64,000 bases of DNA, from positions 124,001 through 188,000 of the forward strand of contig NZ_JAUDCO010000003.1 in assembly GCF_030373545.1 (NCBI RefSeq). Direction: 5' to 3'. Under the pieces are notes generated by a model. That model was not told where the DNA came from, made no database searches, and was given only the letters and a program-made list of their open reading frames with translations. Below, piece by piece: positions 2,249 through 60,222 of this stretch (positions are counted from its first letter, which is position 1; each line of letters opens with the position of its first letter). The stretch is from Collinsella tanakaei. GTDB lineage: Bacteria > Actinomycetota > Coriobacteriia > Coriobacteriales > Coriobacteriaceae. The translations under genes were made by a program, and so were the position numbers.

Positions 2249-2318
2249 TGGGTTGGTTGGGGACGTGTTCGTTTCATCCCCTTCAGCCCCTCGGGACGTG
2301 TTCGTTCCAGCCCCTCCC
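2249..2318. repeat. Family B repeat, degenerate double copy
   Basis: TGGGTTGGTTGGGGACGTG is followed by a second partial unit, GGGACGTGTTCGTTCCAGCC. The closing CCAACCCA arm is degenerate (CATCCC and CAGCCCC). It sits in the gap upstream of the preceding minus-strand membrane protein gene. Confidence 0.65.
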
Positions 2319-3539: not shown

Positions 3540-3580
3540 TTCGCTCCATCATACCCGCTTCGTCGCGTGACGGGATGGCG

Positions 3581-3643
3581 ACGGGATGGGGCCGGGTTCA
3601 ATCTTGTCGATGCCGGCAAGATTGAACCCGGCCCCGTCCTGTC
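3581..3643. repeat. Family A repeat, inverted pair (copy 3)
   Basis: Two family A units face each other: GGGGCCGGGTTCAATCTTG and its exact complement CAAGATTGAACCCGGCCCC, separated by about ten bases. The pair can form a 19-bp perfect stem. It lies between two genes pointing away from each other. Confidence 0.75.
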
Positions 3644-13406: not shown

Positions 13407-13442
13407 TGGGTCGGTTGGGGACGTGTTCCGTCCAACCCATTT
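13407..13442. repeat. Family B repeat
   Basis: Full-length unit starting TGGGTCGGTTGGGGACGTG and ending TCCAACCCATTT. The ends pair (GGGT..GG with CCAACCC). It lies three bases after the permease stop codon. Confidence 0.7.
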
Positions 13443-16726: not shown

Positions 16727-18460
16727 CTACAGCGCCCAGCTCGCGCTCTCGGTCTGCAGGCGCACCATGCGGGCGAAAAGACCGTCGCGTGCCATGAGCT
16801 CTGCGGGACTCCCCTGCTCGGCCACGCGGCCGCCGTCGAGCACCACGATCTTGTCCGCCGCCTGCACCGTGCGCATGCGGTGGGCAATCACGATGACGGT
16901 CTTGCCGACGAGCAATCGGGAAAGCGCCTCCTGGACCTTCGTCTCGTTCTCCACATCCAGGCTCGCTGTCGCCTCGTCGAGCAGCACGACGGGCGCATCC
17001 TTGAGGAGCGCGCGGGCGATGGAGATGCGCTGCCGCTCGCCGCCGGACAGCTTGGAGCCGTTCTCACCGATCATCGTGTCGTAACCCTGCGGCAGCCTGC
17101 TCACGAACTCATCGCAGTTGGCAGCGCGCGCGGCGGCCAGCACCTCCTCGTCGGTGGCGCCGCGCCTGCCCAAGCGGATGTTCCCCATCACCGTATCGTC
17201 AAAGAGCAGCACATCCTGGAAGACTACGGCGAAATCACGCAGCAGGACCTCCGGATCCACGGTCGCCACGTCCACGCCGCCCACGGTGACACGGCCCGTA
17301 TCCGCATCCCACAGGCGCGCCGCCAGGCGCGCGCAGGTGGACTTGCCAGAGCCGGAGGGCCCCACGAGCGCCGTGACCTCGTCCTCGCGGGCCGTAAACG
17401 TCACGCCGTCGAGCACCCTCTCGCCGCCGCCGTAGGAGAACGACACGCCCTCGAAGCGGATATCATGGCCTGCCGGAGCATAGGCCCCTGAACCCTGCGC
17501 GAGCGGCTCCTCGAAAAAGCCCTTCATGCGCGCTGCGGCCGTTTTCGCCGAGAAGAGCTCCGCGATGAGCATGAGGCACTGGTCGAAGGGCGCGTAGATG
17601 CGGCTCACCACGATAAGGAAGGCGAACAGCGTCATAAAGGTGCAGGAGCCCTCCAAGATGAAGGCGGCGCCGGCGAGGACCGTCGTCGCGAGGCCCAAGC
17701 GCAACACGATCTGCGCGCCGTTCACGCAGACGCCGCAGGCGATCTCGGAACGAGCCGCCTGGCGCTCTGCGGCGTCCACGTCGGCGTGGATATGCTCGAG
17801 GTAGCGGTCCTCCTGGTTGGTGGCGCGCACCTCGCGCACGCACTCGAGTGCCTCCTGGATGTCCTCCGAGGTGGCAAGGCCGCGCATGCGCGTCTTCTCC
17901 ATCATGGGCTGAAGCGTGCGGCGCGCGCCGAACAGGATTGCCAGACCCACCGGACAGCTCCACAGCGACGCCGCCGCGAGCCGCCAATCGAATGCGAAGA
18001 GCCCCACCGCGGCCACAGCGAGCGTAACGTAGGCTCCGTAGAGCTCGGGCAGCACGTGGCTGTAGGCGTGCTCGGTGGTCTTGACGTCGGTCATGAGGGT
18101 CTCGGTGAGATCGGCAAGATCGCGCCTGCCGAAAAACGACAGGGGCAACTTGCGCAGACGCTCGGCAAGGCCGATACGCTGCCGGCCGCTCTCCTTGTAG
18201 ATGACACCGTACTGGTAGTAATAGGCCCAGTACTCGGTCACGAAGAGCACGACGGCGAAAACCGCGATGGCAAGCGCGTACGGAGCCGGCGCGGGCAACG
18301 GCGCGGCATGCGTGAGGTGTGCTATGAACGCCTCCATGAGCTTGTAGATGATGCCCACCCCGCCGAAGATGACGAGGTTCGAGGCAGCCGTCCACACAGT
18401 GCCGAGCTTGACGTTGCGCATGCCCTCATCAGTGAGGGCGTACTTCTCCTGGATACCCAT
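16727..18460 (-). CDS. ABC exporter half-transporter (membrane plus ATPase), second subunit
   Basis: 577 residues: six membrane helices in the first 300 residues, then an ATPase with Walker A GPSGSGKST, Q-loop VVFQDVLLF, signature LSGGERQR, Walker B VVLLDEATASLD and H-loop IAHRM. The ATG follows the stop codon of the upstream ABC gene directly, so the two are translationally coupled and probably form a heterodimer. With a divergent AraC regulator the layout resembles siderophore-associated ABC pairs such as YbtPQ or IrtAB; this is only an analogy. The motifs look intact. Confidence 0.9.
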   Translation of the reverse strand: MGIQEKYALTDEGMRNVKLGTVWTAASNLVIFGGVGIIYKLMEAFIAHLTHAAPLPAPAPYALAIAVFAVVLFVTEYWAYYYQYGVIYKESGRQRIGLAERLRKLPLSFFGRRDLADLTETLMTDVKTTEHAYSHVLPELYGAYVTLAVAAVGLFAFDWRLAAASLWSCPVGLAILFGARRTLQPMMEKTRMRGLATSEDIQEALECVREVRATNQEDRYLEHIHADVDAAERQAARSEIACGVCVNGAQIVLRLGLATTVLAGAAFILEGSCTFMTLFAFLIVVSRIYAPFDQCLMLIAELFSAKTAAARMKGFFEEPLAQGSGAYAPAGHDIRFEGVSFSYGGGERVLDGVTFTAREDEVTALVGPSGSGKSTCARLAARLWDADTGRVTVGGVDVATVDPEVLLRDFAVVFQDVLLFDDTVMGNIRLGRRGATDEEVLAAARAANCDEFVSRLPQGYDTMIGENGSKLSGGERQRISIARALLKDAPVVLLDEATASLDVENETKVQEALSRLLVGKTVIVIAHRMRTVQAADKIVVLDGGRVAEQGSPAELMARDGLFARMVRLQTESASWAL

Positions 18461-20395
18461 CTACTCCACCTCCTGGGAATGGGTTGGTTGGGGACGTGTT
18501 CCGTCCAACCCATTGGGACATGATTCATCCGAATCAAAATGGGTTGGACGGAACACGTCCCCAACCAACCCATTCCCGCTCGTGATGCGCCAGCTCACGG
18601 ACTTCTCGTAGTCGGCCCACATGCGGGCGTACAGACCACCTGCAGCAAGCAGCTCGTCGTGCGCACCCTGCTCGACCACGCGACCGGCATCCAGCACCAC
18701 GATCTTGTCGGCGTTCCGCACCGTGGAGAGACGGTGCGCGATCATGAGGACCGTACGGGGCTCGCCATCGCGCCCACGGGCAAGCCGCCTGAAAGCCGCC
18801 TGGATCTTGACCTCGTTTTCCGGATCGGCGAAGGCCGTGGCCTCGTCGAGCACCACCACCGGCGCATCCTTCAGGATGGCGCGGGCGATCATCAGGCGCT
18901 GGACCTCGCCGCCGGAAAGGTGCGCCCCGCCGGTGCCCACAAGCGTGTCGACACCCTGCGGCAGCTTGTCCAAAATGTCGGAGCACTGGGCGGCCTCGAG
19001 GGCGGCAAGCACCTCATCGTACGTCGCATCGGGACGCGCGGCGCGAACGTTCTCCAGCACCGTCTGCTTGAACGGCCTGTTCGCCTGAAATACGAACGCC
19101 ACGCGGTCCATGAGGTCGTGCGGGTCCATATCGCGCACATCCACGCCTCCGAGCTCCACGCGCCCCGAGCCGACATCCCAGAAGCGCGGCACGAGACTCG
19201 CCGCCGTGGTCTTGCCGCCACCGGAGGGCCCCACGAGCGCCACGGTGGCGCCCGCCGGAACATCGAAGCTCACACGGTCGAGCGCAGGCGCCTCCGCGCC
19301 CTCGTAGGTGAAGGAAACGTCCGCGAAACGGATGGCGTTGCCCTGGGGCGTGCGGGGGCGCGCAGGCGCCGAGATGACGGGAGCGGCGAGCACATCCTCA
19401 ACGCGTGAGACCGCGTCCGCCGCGGACTGGAAGGCCTCGGACATGAACATCACACGCGTGACCGCAGTGGGAATCACGGCCGCGAAGATCGCGTAGAACG
19501 CGAAGTTGGCGACGAAGCGCGCGAAGTCCCCCTCACCCGGCGCCAGCAGAATCGCTGCGGGCACAAGAAAGATCGCGACGCCGTTGATGACCGTGAGCGA
19601 AAGCGACTGCGGCGTCTGGCACCATTTGACCGCGTAGTCCTGCGCAAGGCGCGTGAACTCGTCAATGGCGTCGTGGAACGCCTTGAACGAATAGACCGTC
19701 TGCTGGAAGACCTTGACCACGGGGATGCCGCGCACGTACTCGGTGCCGGTCTTGTTCATCTTGACGAGCGATTCCATGTAGCGCGTCATGAAGTCCATGC
19801 CGCGACCGCCCATCATGTAGAAGATGCAGCCGAGCGAGACGACCACCGACACCAGGCACGCGAGACCAAGCCGCCAATCGAACACGAAGAACAGCGTGAG
19901 CATACCGAGGATCATGGCCACGGACCCCGCCGTATCCGGCAGCTTATGAGCGAGCAGCCCCTCGGTCTCCGCGGCGCAACCGTCCACGACGCGGCGCAGC
20001 GCGCCGCTCGCATGCGTGTCGAAGTATCCCAGACTCGCGTGCATAAGGTGATCCGTAGTGCTCTTGCGCATGTTGGACGCGCAGCGAAACGCCGCGAGGT
20101 GCGTGCACATGAGGCCCGCGAAGTACAGCAGAATGCTCGCAACCGAAAGCCCAAATGCCCACCAGCCGTAGACGGCGACTCCCGTGGCGGCACTCCAGTC
20201 GGGCGCGACGGCGATCAGGTCGCGCGCTACGAGCCAGATGCAGATATACGGGCCGAAACTTATGAGCATCGACACCGCCGAGAGCGCGCACCCGATGTAG
20301 GTGAGCACCCGTCGCGGGCCTGCGAATGAAAGCAGCCGTCCTATGGCGCCTTTGCTGCGCGCGTTGCCTGCGGCGGACGTTTGCGAATCAGACAT
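18461..20395 (-). CDS. ABC exporter half-transporter, first subunit, with repeat-derived C-terminal tail
   Basis: 644 residues: a six-helix membrane domain (about residues 25-320) and an ATPase with Walker A GPSGGGKTT, signature LSGGEVQR, Walker B VVVLDEATAFADP and H-loop IAHRLS. The native end is near residue 606 (YEKSVSWRIT); after that about 38 residues are encoded by two inverted family B repeats (GLVGDVFRPTH, then GLDGTRPQPTH) before the stop that touches the next ATG. The frame survived the insertion, so coupling to the partner gene is preserved. Divergent from the AraC gene. Confidence 0.9.
   Translation of the reverse strand: MSDSQTSAAGNARSKGAIGRLLSFAGPRRVLTYIGCALSAVSMLISFGPYICIWLVARDLIAVAPDWSAATGVAVYGWWAFGLSVASILLYFAGLMCTHLAAFRCASNMRKSTTDHLMHASLGYFDTHASGALRRVVDGCAAETEGLLAHKLPDTAGSVAMILGMLTLFFVFDWRLGLACLVSVVVSLGCIFYMMGGRGMDFMTRYMESLVKMNKTGTEYVRGIPVVKVFQQTVYSFKAFHDAIDEFTRLAQDYAVKWCQTPQSLSLTVINGVAIFLVPAAILLAPGEGDFARFVANFAFYAIFAAVIPTAVTRVMFMSEAFQSAADAVSRVEDVLAAPVISAPARPRTPQGNAIRFADVSFTYEGAEAPALDRVSFDVPAGATVALVGPSGGGKTTAASLVPRFWDVGSGRVELGGVDVRDMDPHDLMDRVAFVFQANRPFKQTVLENVRAARPDATYDEVLAALEAAQCSDILDKLPQGVDTLVGTGGAHLSGGEVQRLMIARAILKDAPVVVLDEATAFADPENEVKIQAAFRRLARGRDGEPRTVLMIAHRLSTVRNADKIVVLDAGRVVEQGAHDELLAAGGLYARMWADYEKSVSWRITSGNGLVGDVFRPTHFDSDESCPNGLDGTRPQPTHSQEVE
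18478..18574. repeat. Family B inverted pair inside the 3' end of an ABC gene
   Basis: Two identical 37-base family B units (18478-18514 and 18538-18574) in opposite orientation, separated by 23 bases. Each starts or ends with AATGGGTTGG / CCAACCCATT. Together they form a 37-bp perfect stem. They lie within the translated end of the first ABC gene and just before the second gene's ribosome site (CCAGGAGG). Confidence 0.85.
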
Positions 20396-28912: not shown

Positions 28913-28948
28913 AATGGGTTGAACGGAACACGTCCCCAACCAATCCAT
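28913..28948. repeat. Family B repeat
   Basis: AATGGGTTGAACGGAACACG followed by TCCCCAACCAATCCATC; a near-complete unit in inverted orientation relative to the copy at 13407. It lies upstream of the FtsX-like gene in a gap of about 270 bases that contains nothing else I recognise. Confidence 0.7.
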
Positions 28949-31096: not shown

Positions 31097-31134
31097 AATG
31101 GGTTGAACGGAACACGTCCCCAACCAACCCATTT
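31097..31134. repeat. Family B repeat
   Basis: Unit starting AATGGGTTGAACGGAACACG and ending CAACCAACCCATTTT, with 10-bp pairing ends. It lies between the convergent Gdx and PH-domain genes and may act as a terminator because it ends in a T run. Confidence 0.7.
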
Positions 31135-33306: not shown

Positions 33307-33465
33307 AAGACTCCTTCGGTCGTATGGATGGAACCATTCTCGCACACACTGCCGCACAGACCAACGGATGGGATGTCCGCCCCCAGCGCCTCCGACGGCC
33401 GATTGCCCGGAACGCAGGCGGCGCATCAACGTACAATAACCCCAGAAGTTTTCGACATGCTGGAC

Positions 33466-33496
33466 GGGTTGAACGGAGCACGTCCCCAACCAACCC
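33466..33496. repeat. Family B repeat (short)
   Basis: GGGTTGAACGGAGCACGTCC followed by CCAACCAACCC. It lies 16 bases before the YbaK-type gene, almost touching its ribosome site (AGAGGGGAGG). Confidence 0.7.
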
Positions 33497-33512
33497 TTAG
33501 AGGGGAGGCGCC

Positions 33513-34547: not shown

Positions 34548-34550
34548 TGG

Positions 34551-34610
34551 CGACAAGTTTGTACCTGGTACCAACTTGTCACCTGACAGCATCTTGTCGC
34601 ACCATTTTGC
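34551..34610. repeat. Family A repeat, composite
   Basis: GACAAGTTTGTACCTGGTACC followed by AACTTGTC forms a complete hairpin. A second, partial unit (TGACAGCATCTTGTCG, then CACCATTTTG) follows. It starts four bases after the membrane protein stop. Confidence 0.7.
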
Positions 34611-34725
34611 CGCTCAACTGGGACTCTACTGGCGGTCGAGTAAACTAAACCAGCTGTCGGTTGAGTGCGCTGCCCTCCCGTGAAACGATGGGCTCGCCAC
34701 ACACGCCACCGGGAAAGGACCGATC

Positions 34726-35145
34726 ATGACCGCACAGAGCTTCGGCGCCACCATCGCAGCCCTTCGCAAGCAGAAGGGCATGACGCAGCTTGAACTCGCC
34801 CGCCAGATGGGCGTGACCGACAAGGCCGTCTCCAAGTGGGAACGCGACCTCTCGTTTCCGGACGTCGCCTCACTGCCCAAGCTGGCAGAGGTGCTCGACA
34901 CCTCCGTCGACGAGCTGCTTGAAGTAAAAAGCGCCGCGCAGGAGGAGCCCGAGAACTCGACCGCAAAGGTCCCCGCCCTCGTCGAGCTTGTGCTCAAAGC
35001 CGTCGCACTCGCCATGGGCGTCGGCGTCACCGCCCTCACCATCATGGACGAGATCGAGCCGCGTCACGCGTTCTGCCTGCTCGGCATCGGCCTTGCCTGC
35101 CTTGCGCTCGTTTTGCTGTCCCACACCGACCAGACGGACGTGTGA
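34726..35145 (+). CDS. XRE family regulator with membrane anchor
   Basis: 139 residues. A helix-turn-helix at about 6-62 (MTQLELARQMGVTDKAVSKW is the core) is followed by a short acidic linker and two hydrophobic helices at about 88-105 and 112-130, so the regulator is probably membrane-bound. This build is common among Gram-positive XRE proteins that sense membrane state or a partner. GGGAAAGGA precedes the ATG. Its TGA stop is the start of a family A repeat (GTGTGACAAG), so its C-terminus was fixed by the repeat. The TVP38-like gene downstream may be a target. Confidence 0.8.
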   Translation: MTAQSFGATIAALRKQKGMTQLELARQMGVTDKAVSKWERDLSFPDVASLPKLAEVLDTSVDELLEVKSAAQEEPENSTAKVPALVELVLKAVALAMGVGVTALTIMDEIEPRHAFCLLGIGLACLALVLLSHTDQTDV

Positions 35146-35184
35146 CAAGTTTGCACCTGGCACCATCTTGTCACCATCTTGTCA
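35143..35184. repeat. Family A repeat, with stop codon of the XRE gene
   Basis: TGACAAGTTTGCACCTGGCA, then CCATCTTGTC, plus a duplicated ACCATCTTGTCA. The first three bases are the stop codon of the preceding gene. Confidence 0.7.
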
Positions 35185-35250
35185 AAACGTTGACGGATTG
35201 TAGATTTCCGCTCCCTACCCTCTTGGAATAACCAGGAAGGGAGCGAATCC

Positions 35251-35988
35251 ATGTCCAGCCCGAACGACTGCACTACCACGATCGGTGGCAACACGCCCCG
35301 CAGCAGCGCCGAATCCAACGCCGCCGCACGCAAGAGGCCCATGCTCGCCATCGCCCTCGTAGCAACGGCAGTCATCGCAGCCGCCGTCGTGCTCGGTCCC
35401 TCCGTCTGGACGTTTTTCTCCAACGGAGAAGCCGTCCGCACTTGGGTCGACGCACAGGGCGCTCTCGCTCCCGCCGCCATGGCCGCGCTCGTCGTGGCGC
35501 AGATCGTGATCGCCATCCTGCCCGGCGAGCCAGTCGAACTCGCCGCCGGCTACCTGTTCGGATTCTTCGAGGGCACCGCCATCTGCCTTATCGGAGGCCT
35601 TATCGGCACCCTCGGTGTGACCGCACTCGTCAAGGCGTTCGGCATGCGTGCAGCACGGACGTTCTTCTCGCAGGAAAAGCTCGAGAGCATCTCGTGGCTG
35701 CGCGATGCGAAGCGCTTCGAGCTCATCATGTTCATCGTGTTTCTGATTCCCGGTACGCCCAAAGACGTGCTCACCTATGCTGCGGGGCTCACCACGTGCC
35801 CCTGGCGGCGCATCGCGGTCATCGGTACGGTGGGCAGGATCCCCTCGATCGTGACCTCGACGCTCGCCGCCGGTTTCGCATCCGAAGGATCCTGGGTCGC
35901 TGCCGGCATCACGCTGCTCGTCACCGGCGTCATCATCGCGGTCGGTGCGGTAGCGTACCGCGCGCTCAGCCAGCGCGTGGCGCGGTGA
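35251..35988 (+). CDS. TVP38/TMEM64 (VTT domain) membrane protein
   Basis: 245 residues of the VTT/SNARE-associated family related to DedA, proposed lipid scramblases or transporters. A membrane helix at about 30-50 is followed by the VTT core: PGEPVELAAGYLFGFFEGTA, GGLIGTLGVTALVKAFG, the re-entrant-loop motif FIVFLIPGTPKDVLTYAAGL and GRIPSIVTSTLAAGF, with a final helix at about 215-235. GGAAGGGAGC precedes the ATG. Bounded on both sides by family A repeats. Confidence 0.88.
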   Translation: MSSPNDCTTTIGGNTPRSSAESNAAARKRPMLAIALVATAVIAAAVVLGPSVWTFFSNGEAVRTWVDAQGALAPAAMAALVVAQIVIAILPGEPVELAAGYLFGFFEGTAICLIGGLIGTLGVTALVKAFGMRAARTFFSQEKLESISWLRDAKRFELIMFIVFLIPGTPKDVLTYAAGLTTCPWRRIAVIGTVGRIPSIVTSTLAAGFASEGSWVAAGITLLVTGVIIAVGAVAYRALSQRVAR

Positions 35989-36009
35989 CCCGGCGACGCC
36001 CCATCTGCT

Positions 36010-36092
36010 TTGACAAGTTTGCACCTGGCGCCACCTGTCACCTGGCGCCACCTGTCACCTGGCGCCATCCTTGCACCTGGCGCCATCTTGTC
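36010..36092. repeat. Family A repeat, tandemly expanded
   Basis: TGACAAGTTTGCACCTGGCG opens the array; CACCTGGCGCCA then recurs four times, with CCTGTCA or CCTTG spacers, before the closing CATCTTGTC. The internal TGGCGCCA is itself palindromic. It lies between convergent genes. Confidence 0.75.
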
Positions 36093-36117
36093 CTCGGCAT
36101 GAAATCGACGCAGGAAG

Positions 36118-39592: not shown

Positions 39593-40180
39593 CTAATCCT
39601 CCCGATGCTTCGCCGCGCGACGCTCGTCGCGCAGGCGGATGCGGTCGAGTGCCGCCTCGGCTGCCGAGAAGCGGCATCCGCAGTAGTTCTGCCGGTACAT
39701 CCCCAGCTCGCGCGAACGACGCGTGGCTTCGGGATACCAGGGGCGAAAATCGCGGATGACCGGGGTGAGCCCACGCGCCCTCGCCAGGCGCTCGAGCACG
39801 TCATTGCAGGTTTCGAACAGCTGGTAAGGAGACACCGCGAGCGTCGTGGCGACATGGTCGAACCCCTCCGCCTCGGCTACGCGCACGGCCTCGGCAAGCC
39901 GCAGCGCATAGCAGGCGCGGCACCTCCGCTCACGGTCGCGCGCGCCGATGGGCGACACGCCGCGCTCCCATGCCGCGTAGTCCTCTCTCGCTTCGATAAG
40001 CGGAATGTCGTTGCCTGCGCACCAGCGTCGCAGTTCAGCCAAGCGCCGATCGTGCTCATCGGCAGGCTGGATGTTCGGATTCGTCCAGCAGATCGTAGGC
40101 TCGAACCCCTCTTCTGTCAGCAGGCGCATCGGCTCGAGCGAGCACGGCGCGCAGCAGGCGTGCAGCAACAAGCGGGTCAT
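39593..40180 (-). CDS. queH: Epoxyqueuosine reductase QueH
   Basis: 195-residue DUF208/QueH protein, the non-cobalamin enzyme that reduces epoxyqueuosine to queuosine in tRNA. Metal/cluster cysteines are all visible: HACCAPC near residues 7-13, CRACYALRL at about 98-106 and YCGCRF near 172. The WTNPNIQP segment is a further family hallmark. The length is normal. The ATG overlaps the stop of the DUF3267 gene upstream (TGATG-type overlap), so translation is coupled even though a family B repeat pair lies in the end of that upstream gene. Confidence 0.92.
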   Translation of the reverse strand: MTRLLLHACCAPCSLEPMRLLTEEGFEPTICWTNPNIQPADEHDRRLAELRRWCAGNDIPLIEAREDYAAWERGVSPIGARDRERRCRACYALRLAEAVRVAEAEGFDHVATTLAVSPYQLFETCNDVLERLARARGLTPVIRDFRPWYPEATRRSRELGMYRQNYCGCRFSAAEAALDRIRLRDERRAAKHRED

Positions 40181-40962
40181 CGAGACCCCCTCTCCATCGG
40201 ATTTGCCGGGTTGGTTGGGGACGTGTTCCTTTCAACCCGTTCAGCAGATTCATCTTGGCAAGCGGGCAAATGGGTTGGAAGGAACACGTCCCCAACCAAC
40301 CCGCGGCGGGCTTCCTCCCCTTCCGACTCATCGCCCTCGCCGAAAAACGAGACGCCCCATTCGGTATCCTCGCAGTACACAATGCGCGCGTCGCGCACAA
40401 TGGCCCGCACATACTCCCAATCTCCCGTGCAGCCTGAAAGATGCAGCACGGCCACCAGGTAGAACACGAGCGGCCAGCCGGTTGTCGCGCCGAGCACGAG
40501 TAGAAGGGCAGTCACGACCACCGTGGGCGCGAGCGCGATTACGAGATACTGGCGACGCGTGTACACGATGTCCTTGGCGCAGGCGTACAGCATGCCCGCC
40601 TTCCAGTTGGCGCCGAACGTCACGCGGGTGCCGGCGGGCGCGAACAGCTTAAAGAAGACGGCGTGCACGACCTCGTGCGCGGCAAGGGATGCGAAGCAGC
40701 CGACAGAGCAGATCGCGAGCCACCAAAACGACGGCGGCATGCCCTCGGCGCCCTCCCCGGCAAAGACGGCGCGAAGCTCCATGCCGGGCAGCCCCAACAG
40801 CTGCGGAATCCCGGCGGCAAACCACACGATGCCGAGGACCGCTCCGACCGCGATCACCGCGGCCGATGCGCGCAGCATGCGCCTCTGAAATCCCCTGTCC
40901 TCGAAGGTTCGTATGTCGGCGATCTTTCTCATGTGCCCAAGGATAGCATGCGCGGCATCCAT
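40177..40962 (-). CDS. DUF3267 metalloprotease-like membrane protein with repeat-derived tail
   Basis: About 261 residues. Two membrane helices at about 30-50 and 75-95 are followed by HEVVHAVFF, an HExxH zinc site within a membrane segment as in DUF3267 and site-2-protease-like proteins, then helices near 145-185. The natural domain ends about WGVSFFGEGDESEGEE; the remaining 35 or so residues (RRGLVGDVFLPTHLPA, then VERNTSPTNPANP) are read through two inverted family B repeats. The stop overlaps the queH start. An alternative start ten codons later (40932) follows a -10-like TATCCT. Confidence 0.75.
   Translation of the reverse strand: MDAAHAILGHMRKIADIRTFEDRGFQRRMLRASAAVIAVGAVLGIVWFAAGIPQLLGLPGMELRAVFAGEGAEGMPPSFWWLAICSVGCFASLAAHEVVHAVFFKLFAPAGTRVTFGANWKAGMLYACAKDIVYTRRQYLVIALAPTVVVTALLLVLGATTGWPLVFYLVAVLHLSGCTGDWEYVRAIVRDARIVYCEDTEWGVSFFGEGDESEGEEARRGLVGDVFLPTHLPACQDESAERVERNTSPTNPANPMERGSR
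40207..40302. repeat. Family B inverted pair inside the 3' end of the DUF3267 gene
   Basis: CGGGTTGGTTGGGGACGTG at the left (40207-40239, closing TTCAACCCG) and its inverted partner at 40271-40302 (GGGTTGGAAGGAACACGTCC, CCAACCAACCC), separated by about 31 bases. Both lie in the translated end of the gene. Confidence 0.8.
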
Positions 40963-50427: not shown

Positions 50428-50495
50428 AAGGGTTTACCCGGTCGGTTGTGACAGGTTCCGGGCGAAAACTGTCACAACCGACCGGGTAAACCCTT
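50428..50495. repeat. Perfect 27-bp inverted repeat between fhs and folD
   Basis: AAGGGTTTACCCGGTCGGTT followed by GTGACAG (50428-50454) and its exact complement (50469-50495), with a 14-base loop GTTCCGGGCGAAAA. It is not part of families A or B by sequence. Stem strength suggests a terminator or a mobile palindrome. The remaining part of the gap of about 390 bases, apart from the fhs terminator, holds nothing I recognise. Confidence 0.75.
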
Positions 50496-58911: not shown

Positions 58912-60132
58912 ATGGCAGACATGCTCACGCTCGACGCGTTCGAGGAGGCCTCCGAGAAGGTCCAGGAGGTCACGCAGAAGACGGAGCTCGTCGAGAGCCC
59001 CCACTTCTCGCAGGCGACCGGCAACCGAGTGTACCTCAAGCCCGAGAACATGCAGCGCACCGGCGCCTACAAGGTGCGCGGCGCGTACTACAAGATCTCG
59101 ACCCTCACGCCCGAGGAGCTCGGTCGCGGCATCATCACCGCGAGCGCCGGCAACCACGCGCAGGGCGTCGCGTTCGCCGCGACACGCGCGGGCGCCAAGT
59201 CGGTCGTCGTCATGCCCACGACCACACCGCTCATCAAGGTGGAGCGCACCAAGGGCTACGGCGCCGAGGTCATCCTGCACGGTGACGTGTACGACGAGGC
59301 GTGCGAGCACGCCATGCGCCTTGCCGAGGAGCGGGGCTACACCTTCATCCACCCCTTCAACGATCCGATCGTCTCCACCGGCCAGGGCACCATCGCCATG
59401 GAGATCGTCCAGGAGCTGCCGCTCGTCGACACGATCTTGGTCCCCGTGGGCGGCGGCGGCCTTGCCTGCGGCGTCGCCACCTTTGCCAAGCTGTACAACC
59501 CCAAGATCCGCGTCATCGGCGTGGAGCCCGCCGGCGCCCCCTCGCTCACCGCCGCGCTCGAGGCGGGACATCCGGTGAAGATCCCGGCCGCCAACACCAT
59601 CGCCGACGGTACGGCGGTGCTCGAGGTCGGCGACAAGGTCTTCCCCTACCTGCAGCAGAACCTCGACGACGTCATCTGCATCCCTGACGACGAGCTCATC
59701 GTGGCGTTCCTCGACATGGTGGAGAACCACAAGATGATCGTCGAGAACTCGGGCCTGCTCACCGTGGCTGCCTTGAAGCACCTGCCCGCCGAGAACCGCC
59801 GCATCGTCTCGATTCTGTCGGGCGGCAACATGGACGTCATCACCATGAGCTCGGTGGTGCAGCACGGCCTGATTCAGCGCGACCGCATCTTCACGGTGAG
59901 CGTGCTTCTGCCCGACCGCCCGGGCATGCTCGTACGCGTGGCCAACGCCATCGCCGAGCAGAACGGCAACGTCATCAAGCTCGAGCACAACCAGTTCGTG
60001 AGCACGAACCGCAACGCGGCGGTGGAGCTGCGCGTGACCATCGAGGCTTACGGCACCGCGCACAAGGAGCAGATCATCGAGGCCCTCCGCGCAGCAGGCT
60101 TCGAGCCCCAGCTTTCGCAGACGATGCTCTAG
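58912..60132 (+). CDS. ilvA: Threonine ammonia-lyase
   Basis: 406-residue PLP enzyme converting threonine to 2-oxobutyrate and ammonia. PLP-binding Lys in QRTGAYKVRGAYYK (about residue 54), phosphate-binding GGGGLACG and SAGNHAQGVA are clear. A C-terminal ACT domain of about 80 residues (FTVSVLLPDRPGMLVRVANA) is that of the single-ACT, catabolic/biosynthetic intermediate form (about 400 residues). GGAAAGAAGG precedes ATG 58912. It is the first step to isoleucine and lies just upstream of ilvD-ilvB, separated by repeats and a long leader. Confidence 0.95.
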   Translation: MADMLTLDAFEEASEKVQEVTQKTELVESPHFSQATGNRVYLKPENMQRTGAYKVRGAYYKISTLTPEELGRGIITASAGNHAQGVAFAATRAGAKSVVVMPTTTPLIKVERTKGYGAEVILHGDVYDEACEHAMRLAEERGYTFIHPFNDPIVSTGQGTIAMEIVQELPLVDTILVPVGGGGLACGVATFAKLYNPKIRVIGVEPAGAPSLTAALEAGHPVKIPAANTIADGTAVLEVGDKVFPYLQQNLDDVICIPDDELIVAFLDMVENHKMIVENSGLLTVAALKHLPAENRRIVSILSGGNMDVITMSSVVQHGLIQRDRIFTVSVLLPDRPGMLVRVANAIAEQNGNVIKLEHNQFVSTNRNAAVELRVTIEAYGTAHKEQIIEALRAAGFEPQLSQTML

Positions 60133-60222
60133 CGACAAGATGGTGCCAGGTACAAACTTGTCGCCCGACAAGATGGTGCCGGGTACAAACTTGTCGGGGT
60201 CCAACCCTGTCGCCCCCCCTGT
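60133..60222. repeat. Family A repeats, tandem pair
   Basis: Two near-identical units, GACAAGATGGTGCCAGGTAC/AAACTTGTC and GACAAGATGGTGCCGGGTAC/AAACTTGTC, followed by decayed CCTGTCGCC units. They start at the ilvA stop codon, where they may act as terminators. Confidence 0.75.

Follow-up and report, generated by a model that had tools for sequence, protein, structure and literature searches.

The window, i.e. the whole 64,000-nt stretch of Collinsella tanakaei DNA analysed here, carries a DUF3267 gene immediately upstream of queH, the two being assigned to Pfam families PF11667 and PF02677, respectively. The DUF3267 coding sequence ends in two inverted copies of a short palindromic repeat, called family B, translated in frame as a C-terminal tail. 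The features of this junction are as follows.

40177..40962, minus strand: DUF3267 gene with the repeat-derived C-terminal tail; start codon uncertain
39593..40180, minus strand: queH, its start overlapping the DUF3267 stop as ATGA
about 40208..40241, plus strand: family B palindromic unit, corresponding to the second half of the tail when translated on the minus strand
about 40269..40302, minus strand: inverted partner unit, translated as GLVGDVFLPTH
40186..40195, minus strand: purine-rich stretch GGAGAGGGGG, read from the sequence, 3' of the insert and 5' of the queH start

The two units, each about 34 nt long, are 94% complementary, and the DUF3267 stop TGA (40177-40179) overlaps the queH ATG (40178-40180), just as the preliminary description of this DNA had read the junction. 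On the minus strand the DUF3267 protein ends in ...GEEA-RRGLVGDVFLPTHLPACQDESAERVERNTSPTNPANP-MERGSR*, where MERGSR* is taken as the native end. The purine-rich stretch may act as the ribosome-binding site of queH.

The spacing between the two genes was analyzed in 28 loci of relatives that lack the family core. It is -4 in 9 of them, -1 in 2, -14 in 1 and +10 in 11, while for the other 5 the scripted placement gave a distant start or no usable one. Five of the six closest element-free relatives (62-69% identical) are at -4, and one could not be parsed. On this basis the overlap is probably older than the element. Lacking the insert, the DUF3267 protein of the window would stop 6 residues after GEEA, with a tail of about the length found in the relative G020. 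In the sister genome G036 the insert lies at the same site and carries two extra 36-nt direct units, in frame.

A second junction of this kind is found between two ABC transporter genes.

18461..20395, minus strand: first ABC transporter gene (PF00664/PF00005), with a 33-codon insert; the site is empty in G036, G041 and G020
16727..18460, minus strand: second ABC transporter gene, its start abutting the stop of the first
18475..18514, plus strand: family B unit in the tail of the first gene, its arm 100% complementary to that of its partner
18538..18577, minus strand: inverted partner unit
18469..18474, minus strand: AGGAGG, resembling a ribosome-binding site for the second gene, directly 3' of the insert and also found at the empty sites

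The preliminary description saw the queH arrangement as a repeat of this one. The in-frame pair of units at a coupled junction is indeed the same; stop and start, for their part, do not overlap, and abut as TAGATG. The two cases are independent, as had been proposed: the site at 40207 is shared with G036, and the insertion at 18480 is missing in G036, G041 and G020. These three relatives, 96-97% identical to the window at the site, end the first gene in ITSAQEVE*, where the window reads ITSG...HSQEVE* and is 33 codons longer; AGGAGG, stop and start are all kept. Because three relatives have the empty site, the 33 codons have been inserted cleanly in frame, and the junction provides a before-and-after case of a mobile repeat making new protein sequence in a Collinsella operon. 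Four further aligned relatives (G014, G040, G029 and G042) have other short tails, free of family B, so the end of this gene is variable anyway. The least expected part of the finding comes from another relative, G030, where the same junction holds a unit of a different repeat family (GGGACAGGCACTTTTGTCCC type), translated in frame as 10 codons (L162, C70:6245-6264). At up to 3 mismatches, this family has 118 matches in G030, 22 in the window's genome (G000), 35 in G036, 53 in G041 and 60 in G037.

Family B is a REP-like family of short repeats, with the consensus ATGGGTTGGTTGGGGACGTGTTCC.T.CAACCCAT and unconserved flanks. The window contains 9 core matches at up to 3 mismatches, where 0.12 are expected by chance. 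Outside the two junctions, the following units are present.

2250..2315, plus strand: two units, intergenic
13408..13440, plus strand: unit 3 nt after a stop
28914..28947, minus strand: intergenic unit
31098..31131, minus strand: unit in a convergent gap, with 10 nt to the stop on either side
33464..33497, minus strand: intergenic unit between divergent genes, with one core mismatch

In G000, 111 places lie within 2 mismatches of the 17-nt core (100 of them listed individually), and reversed controls gave 0 and 1. The exact 14-nt core was found in 6 of the 43 genomes of the genus: 82 times in G000, 51 in G041, 50 in G036, 4 in G014, 2 in G020 and once in G040. When grouped into clusters, the units of G000 form 58. 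Of these, 45 are intergenic, 8 are located at the edge of a stretch or contig, and 5 fall in called genes, including one spurious gene. Simple pairs of opposite orientation account for 9 of the 58 clusters in G000, 11 of 35 in G041 and 1 of 30 in G036; single units and direct arrays are common. Eight of the 25 G000 contigs (C4, C6, C8, C11, C15, C20, C23 and C24) have family B units no more than about 90 nt from one end. These repeats thus seem to interrupt the assembly, and family B may be more numerous than counted. One contig end (L084; C15:3286-3304 in G000) reads CTGTCTCTTATACACATCT, which we take to be the end of a Nextera adapter, perhaps left untrimmed in the assembly.

Other repeats are also present in the window. 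A second dispersed family (GCGACAAG.TTG..CCTGG..CC..CTTGTCGCC type) has 9 copies at 66% identity or better, located at 661-694, 1315-1348, 3578-3643, 34550-36095 and 60132-60198. At 50428-50495, two 33-nt arms (AAGGGTTTACCCGGTCGG...) form an inverted repeat with 94% complementarity and a gap of 2 nt; it may belong to a further repeat family or act as a terminator.

A search of the genome for further repeat-derived tails at junctions, as suggested in the preliminary description, was positive. An ABC gene of G000 (L097, Pfam ABC_tran), presumably LolD-like judging from its sequence, ends in two direct units, and the start of its neighbour follows 2 nt on. The tail consists of one unit in G036, also in frame; G041 has another palindrome at this junction instead. 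The latter was evaluated as a third repeat family and dropped, since only one further place was found in G041, at 3 mismatches. Two direct units also lie in frame within a G000 gene that we take, again from sequence, to encode PurF (L075; Pfam GATase and Pribosyltran; insert at L075:4397-4464, C4). The corresponding insert is one unit long in G041 and missing in 7 other aligned relatives, with the frame kept throughout (30 of 41 close matches were used as loci), and it falls in a stretch of variable length among relatives. In G036, the regulator gene L137 ends in a family B unit, but it faces a convergent neighbour, and the tail is therefore outside any coupled junction. The unit is common to G020 (L349), where the stop comes right after it, and other relatives end differently. 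A 61-aa ORF of G000 (L071:8314) and three ORFs of G036 (L135, L140 and L148) were judged spurious by eye and discarded.

In G000, three of the four credible genic insertions are located within 32 nt of the stop. The three genes concerned are upstream members of pairs, with the next start at -4, 0 or +2 nt; same-strand pairs with a gap of 5 nt or less amount to 34 of 173, as counted with our own caller, which misses some starts. None of the 35 clusters of G041 lies in a called gene. The PurF unit of that genome fell outside the sample: the LolD and PurF units of G036 and G041 read ATGGGG, and the samples from these genomes were seeded from the exact TTGGGG core.

The preliminary description also proposed that selection keeps frames open through the element. 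Extragenic units turned out to be about as open as their dinucleotide shuffles, and the idea was dropped: of the 6 frames, 5.22 are open in G000 (107 units), 5.18 in G041 (60) and 5.35 in G036 (55), against 5.06, 5.01 and 5.08, respectively, in the shuffles. For whole elements of two or three units, 67% of frames are open in G000 (25 elements), 64% in G041 (18) and 76% in G036 (13), against 59%, 63% and 61% in the shuffles, with the largest departure in G036. Direct spacings outside genes are multiples of three in 21 of 28 cases in G000, 6 of 8 in G041 and 14 of 22 in G036. Of these, 15, 3 and 10, respectively, are of exactly 36 nt, the commonest direct spacing outside genes. Since such spacings are already common there, the growth of arrays in frame needs no selection.

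Y1_Tnp matches occur at three places in G000, and one of the genes, at C3:33949, has family B units on both sides; from their sequence, its neighbours are presumably gpmI and secG. C. tanakaei ET10 has a transposase of 91% identity with the same neighbours and flanking family B units. Related stretches were searched in GTDB genomes, and the best 80 of 280 were kept. Among these 80, the 13-nt core is found within one mismatch at all 9 loci of at least 59% identity and at 1 of the 71 below, a cut-off picked after seeing the table. Beyond Collinsella, the core lies at transposase loci of Enorma, Candidatus Limicola and other Coriobacteriaceae. In G036, which is 87% complete, 50 cores are present, but no transposase match better than 51% identity was found, meaning that the cognate gene is either lost or unassembled. 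The C-terminus of the transposase gives a weak match to HTH_31 (residues 217-244, E 0.0098), below the curated cut-off.

Taken at a probability of about 0.8, our reading is that family B consists of REP-like non-autonomous repeats, most likely moved by a cognate Y1 transposase of RAYT/TIRYT type, and that insertions survive chiefly at gene junctions. Where genes abut without a spacer, one harmless spot would be left, the last few codons of the upstream gene, ahead of the next ribosome-binding site. Being short and G+C-rich, the unit contains few stops whichever frame is read, and insertions of 3n nt would then be translated as a C-terminal tail, with native end, stop and next start remaining in place. 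As direct copies are mostly 36 nt, or 12 codons, apart, arrays could lengthen without a frame shift. Selection would remove the other insertions, and the tails would have no function of their own.

The same distribution might arise if the transposase itself preferred gene ends or stop-start junctions, through a target-site or strand preference to which selection adds little. We regard this as unlikely, yet as the most serious of the alternatives. The positions of the clusters were compared with those of elements placed at random within the same gaps. Genes were predicted by a simple caller of our own, by which the true start of queH was missed; edge clusters (8 of 58 in G000, 8 of 30 in G036) were excluded, and mismatched cores were accepted only with an exact 13-nt core within 150 nt. 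Three of the 50 places of G036 (contigs C27, C75 and C92) were left out. In G000, the gaps between same-strand genes hold 31 clusters, convergent gaps 8 and divergent gaps 6. Of the same-strand elements, 11 of 31 begin within 10 nt after the upstream stop, where 2.46 are expected, and none of 20,000 draws was as high; no element of the 31 falls in the 10 nt next to a start. If the random elements are kept out of the 40 nt preceding the next start, 5.3 are expected and the p-value is 0.002. This spike fits a transposase aiming at gene ends, and so does the presence of a different in-frame repeat family at the ABC junction of G030. The orientation of the elements points the same way: with the three genomes pooled, those of uniform orientation are head-first by 16 to 7 within 20 nt of a stop and by 17 to 31 further away (Fisher p 0.011), a test picked after seeing the data.

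Against such targeting, the excess is not robust in G041, where 8 of 25 elements are near a stop (3.27 expected, p 0.006) and the p-value climbs to 0.054, 0.15 and 0.40 with 16, 24 and 40 nt barred, hence depending on the null. It is not detectable in G036 (1 of 9 against 0.48 expected, p 0.39). The excess in convergent gaps is not significant in G000, G041 or G036 (p 0.09, 0.61 and 1.0, respectively). No common target motif was identified, and survival alone can yield the same pattern. The target preference for gene ends suggested in the preliminary description is therefore partly supported, by G000, and the lack of enrichment at coding 3' ends that would speak against it is not what the window's own genome shows; targeting and survival are not separated by these data. 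As a more tentative extension, with odds clearly against it, repeats of several unrelated families may land again and again at coupled stop-start junctions, rewriting C-termini and putting a strong hairpin just ahead of the ribosome-binding site that follows. A single step would then change both the end of a protein and the balance between two coupled genes.

The tails, or the RNA hairpins, could instead be kept by selection for a role, such as tuning of the downstream coupled gene or mRNA protection; this we consider improbable. The predicted hairpins of the DUF3267 and 18461 inserts, just ahead of the next start region, are strong (-64.9 and -89.4 kcal/mol, with z of -9.3 and -13.6, respectively), but any inverted pair of units gives a hairpin. 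The DUF3267 insert is identical between G000 and G036 at 94 of 95 sites, compared with 603 of 630 before it (27 differences) and 161 of 175 after it (14 differences); the Fisher value for this comparison derives from counts entered by hand. This low divergence is at best a faint hint of conservation: it amounts to 1 change where about 5 are expected, and may reflect conversion between copies. Moreover, the 18461 insert is missing in relatives and the number of units varies between species. That both cases stem from chance or gene-calling artefacts, as two cases in 64 kb and the spurious ORFs mentioned above might suggest, is hardly credible in view of the Pfam domains, the insert-free relatives and the kept reading frames, and for 18461 it is already refuted by the empty sites.

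Family B has several parallels in the literature. According to PMC3733652, in the species diagrammed there, most REPs between convergent ORFs are no further than 20 bp from either 3' end, and those between same-strand ORFs are near the 3' end of the upstream one; in-frame intragenic REPs exist, and slightly over 10% are at coding ends. REPs near ORF 3' ends and in-frame REPs are thus already published, and the family B tails are a clear example of a known phenomenon. Among the top-ranked search results, judged by title and the start of the abstract, no paper was found on REPs in Collinsella or Coriobacteriia, or on REPs with translational coupling, which is not proof of absence.

Family B resembles the REP/BIME/REPIN elements associated with RAYTs (PMC3116915, PMC3733652; REPINs and TnpA-REP activity are treated in PMC3116915 and PMC8266576) in being made of short high-copy palindromes, some in inverted pairs, mostly intergenic, near ORF 3' ends and flanking a Y1 transposase gene. 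It differs in that neither GTAG nor CGTC is conserved as a tetranucleotide flanking the palindrome: neither is terminal in the consensus, and CGTC is restricted to the palindrome itself, where it is read on the other strand. A further difference is that, in addition to inverted pairs, single units are numerous and direct arrays of 36 nt are found.

A second comparison is with TIRYT, or TnpAY1 subclass 2.1 (PMC3733652, PMC6006769), a subclass described with a C-terminal HTH. Here too a Y1 transposase is flanked by G-rich repeats that are also dispersed in the genome; its C-terminal helix-turn-helix match is weak. TIRYT genes are described as flanked by repeats sharing GGGGWSAS (PMC3733652), whereas the family B core is GGGGACGT. 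GGGGWSAS itself was found near 36 of the 80 loci (best 80 of 280), a count without chance control that assumes one fixed gene position, wrong at loci cut by contig ends. The survey in PMC6006769 reports no REP-like sequences near subclass 2.1 genes; here, in contrast, a transposase that may have a C-terminal HTH is associated with over 100 dispersed copies of family B, a system that could serve to test whether such transposases target gene ends.

Three other systems are comparable in part. Rickettsia palindromic elements, as reported in PMC3733652, resemble the PurF insert in being read in frame within protein-coding genes; most family B copies are instead extragenic, and 3 of the 4 credible genic copies of G000 sit at the extreme 3' end. 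The likeness concerns the way of working. The enterobacterial RU and ERIC repeats (PMC2759123) are small mobile elements that also extend protein C-termini, but they are longer, 103-168 bp, and in one described gene the normal stop is lost, while family B keeps it at coupled junctions. Finally, PMC12306157 cites E. coli REPs within 15 nt of the stop that stall ribosomes. Many family B copies likewise lie just after a stop codon, whereas those at coupled junctions sit before it, a comparison made by position only.
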